From contig JAFZIY010000017.1 in the NCBI GenBank assembly GCA_017554105.1, positions 1 to 64,000 of the forward strand: 64,000 bases of DNA, read 5' to 3'. A program made the position numbers and the translations under genes. The DNA comes from Prevotella sp. (lineage in GTDB: Bacteria > Bacteroidota > Bacteroidia > Bacteroidales > Bacteroidaceae). This document shows, piece after piece, positions 27,071 through 48,794 of this stretch (position 1 is the stretch's first letter; each line of letters opens with the position of its first letter). The notes under the pieces are model-generated. The model was not told where the DNA came from and did no database searches. It was given only the letters and a program-made list of their open reading frames with translations.

Positions 27071-27405
27071 GTCTCAGTCTCAGTAGTCTCAAATCTCAGT
27101 TAAAAAACAAGGGTACCATTTACATCGCATTCTCCCTATATAACACTTATAACTTATTGATAATCAATAATATATATAATATAAATAGTAAAGAAGACGA
27201 AAAATGGGGTACCTTAAAAAACAACTGAGACTACTGAGATTTGAGACTGGCTCATATTAGCTTTGGGCTAATCATCTGTAAATCAACGATATACAACATC
27301 TTCAATATTAAGCCATCACAAAAACAACCCCAAAACAGTCACAGATATATGCATTTTTCTCCTCTAAAAGGCCTCAAAATAAGTGCTTGAGACGCTTATT
27401 TCGAT
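27071..27405 (-). repeat. Dispersed intergenic repeat, copy A
   Basis: Homologous, in opposite orientation, to 48196-48522. Both copies share a 28-bp identical block (27349-27376 here), a 25-bp identical AT core (27145-27169, containing TATTGATTATCAATA on the minus strand) and inverted arms built from TCTCA pentamers (27071-27101 and 27223-27247). No ORF lies inside. It is in the 689-base gap between the ABC-F gene and the AraC-type gene. Confidence 0.9.
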
Positions 27406-27618
27406 GTTTTTCAACCTACTTTGCGCACATTAGGGTGTTGCAAAAAAACAGTCTCACGACCTAAAATAGAGGTCTTTTAGGTCGTTTCAGTCCATCTTTT
27501 GCTTGTTTTAAGGCATAAAAGACCACATCTGAGAGTATAAGGAGACGCTTTTTACAATCTCAAAAGATATAAGTGACGGGGTCAAAGATATGCAATTGGC
27601 ATTACAAAAGATATCTTC
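27406..27618. other. Rest of the 689-base gap: hairpin, otherwise unassigned
   Basis: Behind copy A the gap holds a 10-bp perfect hairpin (27457-27466 with 27475-27484). It may terminate the partner-switching operon on the minus strand, since an A-run at 27442-27448 would give a U-tract. Similarity to the left flank of copy B continues weakly to about 27440. Nothing else recognised. Confidence 0.45.
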
Positions 27619-48016: not shown

Positions 48017-48195
48017 CGCCTACTTGTTTATTTAGATTTGTGACTATGTTATTAGTGAGAGCAAAAATAGTGAATCTTTTACAATAACGCAAATAAATGA
48101 ATCAATTCTTCCATTTTAGCACAGAATTCGTAGTTTTTATGTCACAATGCATGAATTTAACAACAGTTAAATGAGCGAAAAATGCAGGAATTCCT
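48017..48195. other. Gap between islet and repeat copy B
   Basis: Holds the promoter for the islet (48062-48093). Weak similarity to the right flank of copy A begins about 48165. No gene seen. Confidence 0.5.
48062..48093 (-). promoter_or_regulatory. Promoter of the nuclease islet
   Basis: Minus strand: -33 TTTG (CAAA 48090-48093), 20-base spacer, -7 TATTTTTG (CAAAAATA 48062-48069). Confidence 0.65.
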
Positions 48196-48522
48196 ATCGA
48201 AACAAACGTCTCAGACACCTATTCTGAGGCCTTTTAGAGGAGAAAAATGCATGATTCTGTGACTATTTCAGGACAGAATTAGTCATAGCTTTCTATTGAA
48301 GATGTTGTATATTATTGATTTACATGCGATTAGAATGTTGCTTGTATTTATCCATCTCAACGTCTCAGCGTCTCAGTTGTTTTTAAAAGTACCCCCAACT
48401 CGTCTCCTATACTATATATTTTATATATATTATTGATTATCAATAAGTTATAAGTATCATAATGGAAGATTGGGATGTAGATAATACCATTATTTTTGAT
48501 TGAGACGCTGAGACGTTGAGAC
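48196..48522 (+). repeat. Dispersed intergenic repeat, copy B
   Basis: Inverted-orientation homologue of 27071-27405. It shares the 28-bp block (48225-48252) and the 25-bp AT core (48431-48455). Its TCTCA arms at 48355-48375 and 48501-48521 are perfectly complementary over 21 bp. The bases between the TCTCA pentamers differ from copy A, yet both arms of B agree with each other. Confidence 0.9.
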
Positions 48523-48794
48523 GGTCCCGGTTATTTATCTAATCTTGACCTTCCTCTACGAGGCATTCAAGATGGTCATCAGAACGTCGTTAATACAATT
48601 GCCAGAGATGTCTTCTGAGAGTGTCACATGTAGGTATCTGACGTACCAAAAAGACACATCTGTGAGTCCTACCAACGGCCGAACGAACAAGTTTCGAGTC
48701 CTTTTCACTCGGAAATGAATAAAATCTTTATATGATTGACTTATAATTCATTTTTTTTATCTAATTTTGCACCCTGAATAAGCTATTTGAAGAA
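48523..48794. other. Gap between repeat B and pheS
   Basis: No gene recognised. It contains a small hairpin (CGAGT/ACTCG, about 48697-48713) and, before pheS, a -7 TAATTTTG (48762-48769) with TTGAC at 48736-48740 as a loose -33. Confidence 0.5.

Follow-up and report, generated by a model that had tools for sequence, protein, structure and literature searches.

Iteron-like Arms around an AT-Rich Core in Prevotella: Probable Solo Remnants of a Chromosomal Initiator-Origin Module

Introduction

In the SaPI Rep-ori, the C-terminal domain of the initiator recognises short iterons that adjoin its own gene (Ubeda 2007, as cited in PMC7581432). In the account of SCCmec given in the same source, the C-terminal domain of the Cch2 helicase binds 5-nt AAGTG iterons located in the element, and the operon provides a primase function (PMC7581432). 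The Rep protein of geminiviruses is described with iterons of 5–6 nt upstream of rep, which often differ among close relatives and match the cognate Rep (PMC12548392); geminiviruses are single-stranded DNA plant viruses, and they are likened here without any claim of homology. Within Prevotella, PINSR of Prevotella intermedia is a 188-bp multicopy intergenic repeat, reported without terminal inverted repeats (PMC4755523).

The present analysis starts from two intergenic repeats, copies A and B, in a 64-kb stretch of Prevotella DNA, referred to below as the window. Like PINSR, the repeat is multicopy and intergenic in Prevotella, and it is set apart from PINSR by the description of the latter, in which terminal inverted repeats are absent. 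Judged by comparison with intact loci, copies A and B are probably solo remnants of a chromosomal initiator-origin module, whose arms would be the iterons of a matching initiator. The best reading of the comparisons is that this module would work like the Rep-ori of SaPI and SCC, with its site upstream of the gene and with a protein outside known families. No account of this system came to light when open-licence PMC papers were searched under the family names and for iterons of Prevotella.

Organization of the Intact Loci

Sequence comparison gives the order of an intact locus as gene X (usually present), the arm-core-arm site, a protein of ~435 aa and a CHC2/DnaG-like primase, the site adjoining the start of the 435-aa gene on its upstream side. 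In the genome from which the window derives, the locus on contig C5 (L034) is intact and comprises gene X (~130 aa), arm-core-arm, the 435-aa protein and a 310-aa protein in which Pfam recognises a CHC2 primase zinc finger (E 2.4e-15); contig C16 has another intact copy. By tblastn, gene X precedes the site in 64 of 88 distinct loci and the primase follows site and gene in 87 of them, which bears out the suggestion of the sequence-only reading that longer copies be searched for a neighbouring primase or HU gene; HU-HIG genes, as well as DUF4248 genes, lie downstream of some loci. In 16 wide loci, ORF clustering detects gene X 13 times and the primase 14 times. With regard to an IS or MITE, for which a transposase or terminal repeats matching one would be expected, no neighbour cluster other than these two genes, the 435-aa protein and HU-like genes is repeated in more than five of the 16, and a search for the full ends of the element did not locate them.

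The adjoining primase recalls the SaPI Rep-ori, which has a primase gene in the same element, and the anatomy of the site is like that of the SaPI origin in combining short iterons with an AT-rich stretch, origin activity being here a prediction from sequence. In SaPI the C-terminal domain fixes iteron specificity, and the putative counterpart here is the covariation of the arm unit with residue 407 of the candidate initiator. Unlike SaPI, as far as its description goes, the present system has two opposed arms around a core, many solo sites and a match in a single viral contig, and its site lies upstream of the gene, whereas the SaPI origin is placed directly downstream of rep. The SaPI/PICI type has an integrase with att sites, and SCC elements carry Ccr recombinases (PMC7581432); in the present case tyrosine integrases (PF00589) were looked for. 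When the PF00589 matches in five genomes were compared with eight intact loci, three loci had none on the contig, and the nearest match to the other five lay at 39 kb (G656), 69, 295, 301 and 397 kb, thus at least 39 kb off or absent from the contig in all eight. Because its site and that of SaPI lie on opposite sides of the gene, and no tyrosine integrase is nearby in these eight intact loci, the module is not filed as SaPI/PICI. The site of SCCmec Cch2 is likened by its description (PMC7581432), in which there are three direct iterons only, in contrast to the two opposed arms found here.

Searches of Pfam, PHROGs, NCBIfam and PADLOC gave no significant match for the 435-aa protein, which, in lying outside all family libraries searched, differs from the SaPI Rep-ori as described; a PDB profile search gave one unconvincing match (E 0.012). 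The label DUF3987 (PF13148) was rejected, as no Pfam match to it was obtained in the genome of the window or in the 435-aa query, P0002. Two residues, K80 (P-loop-like motif) and E162 (acidic motif), are invariant in 132 of 132 loci, the motifs having been read by eye. Near the C-terminus, W409 and R412 are each conserved in 131 of the 132 loci, Q405 in 125 and L406 in 122, the variable positions 407 and 408 being set between these nearly invariant residues.

Relatives of greater length (678–858 aa), present in nine loci, share 27–30% identity with the 435-aa protein over the common part and connect it to BT4734-like_N (PF08800), a domain detected in one of the four long relatives scanned; the 435-aa protein lacks the N-terminal part of these BT4734-like relatives and adjoins a separate CHC2 primase. 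An arm-core-arm built of GTTAAC units lies ~2 kb upstream in one long-relative locus (L232), and none was seen within 7 kb in the other eight. In two of these, L231 (minus strand, ~2150–2335) and L233 (1195–1395), GAAGTTA-like arrays face TAACTTC-like arrays near TTCGCA and TGCGAAA and resemble another repeat family, and a GAAGTTA/TAACTTC-like stretch is also present in L048/L110, between the arm site and the gene.

At E 1e-10, 90 of 200 genomes of the genus have the protein, long relatives at ~30% identity being counted among these matches, and at E 1e-110 it is present in 76 of 398 genomes; in an order-wide sample, 3 of 393 genomes reach 1e-90, the genome of the window among them. The best 80 of 293 relatives in the GTDB scan come mostly from ruminant-gut assemblies and are labelled Prevotella, Prevotellaceae, Bacteroidales or Bacteroidaceae. 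A phage or plasmid element was rejected, as P0002 matched nothing in phage or plasmid records and a family alignment search of viral contigs retrieved one contig encoding a relative.

Diverse defence-type genes lie upstream of the site, those in L034, L072 and L081 being of restriction type. For 29 loci, PADLOC matched 140 families in 87 proteins taken from the 5-kb upstream flanks versus 4 in 77 downstream proteins; these figures count families, not loci, and because one protein may match many families, the number of defence genes cannot be read from them. The PADLOC names among the matches listed are of seven kinds (type IIG, pAgo, AbiEi, AbiEii, AbiD, AbiLi and methyltransferase), and Pfam matched 43 families in the same 87 upstream proteins.

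The Two Copies in the Window

Copy A (27071–27405, minus strand) and copy B (48196–48522, plus strand) align at 78% identity over ~300 bp, in agreement with the homology over about 330 bp noticed in the sequence-only reading, and the 28-bp block reported there as identical (27349–27376 in A, 48225–48252 in B) is so. The AT-rich core is likewise identical between the copies, its extent being 35 bp (27145–27179, minus strand, in A; 48421–48455, plus strand, in B) and not the 25 bp originally given. The inverted TCTCA arms proposed to surround it were located on both sides in both copies. In copy A, the arm distal to the broken gene (27072–27098, plus strand) has four TCTCA units (27072–27076, 27078–27082, 27087–27091 and 27094–27098), and the arm adjoining the broken gene (27226–27246, minus strand) has three, read as TGAGA on the plus strand (27226–27230, 27235–27239 and 27242–27246). 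In copy B each arm has three units, placed at 48355–48359, 48363–48367 and 48371–48375 in the arm adjoining the broken gene (48355–48375, plus strand) and, again as TGAGA on the plus strand, at 48501–48505, 48509–48513 and 48517–48521 in the second arm (48501–48521, minus strand). A scan for 5-mers that occur at least three times in 32 bp, opposite at least three reverse complements 70–260 bp away, matched A and B alone in the 64-kb window, and the same scan of five shuffles of 2-base blocks gave zero paired arrays.

The earlier impression that the two arms of each copy agree with each other applies fully to copy B, in units and spacers, and in copy A to the units but not to the spacers, which from outside to inside are G, GTAG and AA on one arm versus AA and GTAG on the other. 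As the spacer order differs between them, the arms of copy A pair only in part, over 27 nt at 70% or over 16 nt perfectly in a shifted register.

No ORF is contained inside the repeat, as had been stated, yet an ORF, now broken, occupies the block outside the arm, and the alignments identify the 28-bp block as a decayed remnant of the 5′ end of the 435-aa gene. In copy B, this remnant of an initiator-like gene (48135–48315, minus strand; tblastn, the end near 48315 placed by eye) includes 48225–48252 and matches residues 16–61 at 48272–48135, with 48% identity and two stops (E 1e-6). The corresponding remnant in copy A (27286–27463, plus strand; tblastn, left end by eye) contains the block at 27349–27376, has in-frame stops and has lost its start codon (by eye); its tblastn matches, to residues 16–49 at 27329–27430 with two stops (E 0.06) and to P0002 residues 26–60 at 27359–27463 (E 0.014), are each weak by themselves, and the assignment is backed by alignment with other relics. 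Since tblastn reveals gene remnants with stops at the 28-bp block, both copies are regarded as relics. Beyond the second arm of copy B, the possible last codons of gene X (48539–48574, minus strand) were recognised by eye against other loci, a tblastn search with gene X reporting none. A clean empty site for copy A was sought and rejected: homology in G044 stops before A, and another gene comes next. Beside copy A, at 27458–27490, a short perfect stem, ACGACCTAAAA / TTTTAGGTCGT, has a terminator-like appearance by eye.

Arm Units and Their Covariation with the 435-aa Protein

The set of loci was assembled from the 80 of the GTDB scan, less 4 without a 5′ end, and 30 from the genus search, which gave 106. 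Three were dropped for too little upstream DNA (L123, L126 and L051) and three more for the lack of a recognisable core (L060, which is broken by N, and L110 and L048, a single locus bearing an insertion). Distinct proteins are encoded by 88 of the 100 that remained. A held-out set, reduced to 44 by the loss of 14 loci as duplicates or short, brings the total to 132 distinct loci. For prediction, the 44 were further reduced to 28 by removing loci at least 95% identical to the training set, those with fewer than three unit copies and those redundant at 90%; L221–L226 (misfit pattern), L169 and L217 were removed before scoring.

Across the 132 loci, the arm unit has the form 5′-xTNNCA-3′ and varies between loci, most arms consisting of three units, usually at spacings of 6 and 9 or of 8 and 8. 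Twenty unit types occur among clean loci, and the copies in the genome of the window alone display TCTCA, TTACAG, CTTACAG, TTTCAG and TTCCAG as arm words. The two arms of the same locus share a 5-mer present at least twice in each in 130 of 132 loci, versus 8337 of 17292 cross pairs (48%), a rate inflated by the common GTTCC unit type. The arms partly disagree in L161, L062, L119, L154, L099, L100 and others. A related group, L221–L226, has TCTTCAG-like units with SV at positions 407/408 and falls outside the xTNNCA form.

A column comparison of the three proteins with the arm word singled out residues 407 and 408 of the 435-aa protein. Residue 407 follows base x, with R in 44 of 52 G loci, Y in 16 of 17 C loci and N, S or A in 15 of 18 A loci; residue 408 follows NN, being K in all 42 TC loci, Q in 12 of the 16 TA loci, V in 5 of the 7 TT loci and in all 6 CT loci, and N in 4 of the 5 AT loci, whereas GA loci are mixed. 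Among 739 close pairs, for which the units of L120, L121, L127, L128, L135 and L164 were assigned by eye, residue 407 differs in 88% when x differs versus 7% when x is the same, and residue 408 in 86% when NN differs versus 4% when it is the same. In 51 disjoint close pairs, residue 407 is changed in 19 of 19 with different x and kept in 29 of 32 with the same x (table 29, 3 / 0, 19; Fisher p 3e-11), the next-best column reaching 4e-4. With Bonferroni correction in the 39 disjoint pairs of the first 88 loci, 407 versus x gives 1.5e-6; for NN, residue 408 is the best column, yet at 0.12 it is not significant. Gene X and the primase were rejected as specificity factors, no column of either surviving correction (Bonferroni 1).

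Prediction in the 28 held-out loci distinguishes the two residues further. Residue 407 predicts x in 24, the best of 435 columns, compared with 22 for the next column, 18 for the majority and 15 for the nearest neighbour; misfits to its trend are L133, L163, L089, L118, L066–L068 and L071, in addition to the four held-out failures. For NN, residue 408 is the best single column with 16 of 28 (next 14, majority 6), but the nearest neighbour, when chosen on the remainder of the protein, does better, with 21 of 28, and for the full 5-mer the putative C-terminal helix (15 of 28) and the N-terminal 394 residues (14 of 28) are about level. These last results suggest that NN is read by more than one residue, or that it reflects lineage. 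In terms of covariation, then, base x is firmly tied to residue 407, and the NN bases appear to follow residue 408 less strictly.

Proposed Mechanism and Alternative Explanations

The proposal that the TCTCA arrays are iterons around an origin-like site is now strongly supported, as the primase is present in longer copies and covariation links the units to the C-terminal segment of the 435-aa protein. Most likely, the initiator would bind the arms and open the core, and the primase would start replication. In such a mechanism, the C-terminal segment would fold as a winged helix-turn-helix, the unit being read by its recognition helix, and several protein subunits would gather on each arm; the AT-rich core would melt between the two arm assemblies, the P-loop-like domain would unwind the DNA and priming would follow. 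As a single protein of shifting specificity has to be matched by both arms, these would change jointly, and copies A and B, which keep units and core and have lost the gene, would still serve an initiator supplied in trans.

The same unit-residue covariation would arise if the site were an operator and not an origin, the 435-aa protein binding the arms to control its own operon, with the primase and the P-loop-like domain acting elsewhere. The location of the site, just ahead of where the 435-aa gene begins, favours this alternative, to which a modest chance is given; nevertheless, two opposed three-unit arms around a conserved AT-rich core and an adjoining primase suit an origin better, and the solo sites, which are numerous, mostly retain intact units and in one place stand three in a row, have no gene to regulate. 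Far less probable is selection for arm pairing, offered in the sequence-only reading as a structured RNA or cruciform, in which complementarity would be kept for a long hairpin in RNA or extruded DNA. Pairing would account for the same units on both arms of a locus, for odd units mirrored in L140 and L270 (by eye) and for the mirrored spacing of 25 of the 49 loci with at least three identical units in both arms; however, spacing is unmirrored in the remaining 24 (three of which differ by one base), the spacer order of copy A is permuted, and pairing requires neither direct repeats within each arm nor a link to residue 407. In view of this unmirrored spacing, and with zero matches at gathering score when Rfam covariance models were run on the window, a structured RNA was rejected.

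Mutational homogenisation alone, that is, template switching that copies one inverted arm into the other without selection, is as improbable as pairing: it agrees with the mirrored spacers of some copies, such as copy B and L007 (by eye), but it does not predict the association between residue and base, and spacers diverge between copies while units stay intact. As odd units are sometimes mirrored, copying between arms is kept as a step that may supply the mutational route for a simultaneous change of both arms under the initiator-origin reading.

If the initiator-origin reading is correct, ~20 natural unit types with matching protein segments in one small family would make a recognition code readable, and the series would render predicted specificities testable. 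In Prevotella, which is a major genus of the rumen and gut, origin-like modules would stand beside anti-phage genes, and a class of intergenic repeats of the genus would be explained as stranded sites.

Solo Sites and Their Distribution

A site sequence model (R1), built from 45 sequences, finds 11 distinct places in the genome of the window, two of them with an intact gene; of 12 Prevotella genomes chosen, 7 have one place or more. Units at the solo sites inspected are mostly intact by eye, one of those in L277 being decayed and L008 being a variant. Among the relics A, B, C4 and C29, the core is 92% identical in every pair, compared with 60–74% for the gene remnant; because the divergence of the remnant may partly predate gene loss, selection on the solo sites is put forward as a suggestion from these identities. 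In genome G060, three solo arm-core-arm sites stand in a row within ~720 bp (L267, C1:2592720–2593434), and their units all differ (TCTCA, CTTCCA and GTTCCA), two of them being equal to the units of intact loci of the same genome.

In 12 genomes with two copies, no unit is common to both (chance p 0.19), and among three more G725 has GTTCC twice, so that co-resident copies differ in unit in 14 of 15 genomes and share it in one, which is not beyond chance. Incompatibility as the force driving unit change is thus not supported. A wider scenario, in which integrase-less chromosomal replicons with changing anti-phage genes would amplify or spread these by firing in place, solo origins, among them runs of differing units like the trio in G060, would be decoys titrating related initiators, and iteron and helix would change to escape cross-talk, is doubtful, and the unit sharing in G725, one of the 15 genomes, has lowered its standing slightly further.

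Four weak matches to the R1 model are also present in G060, on C1 at 984572, 1016852, 1126440 and 1536955. Two of them, L272 and L273, are near-identical and consist of GGTCATTAAGGGTCA-type arrays around an AT-rich dyad, and these are perhaps another version of the module.
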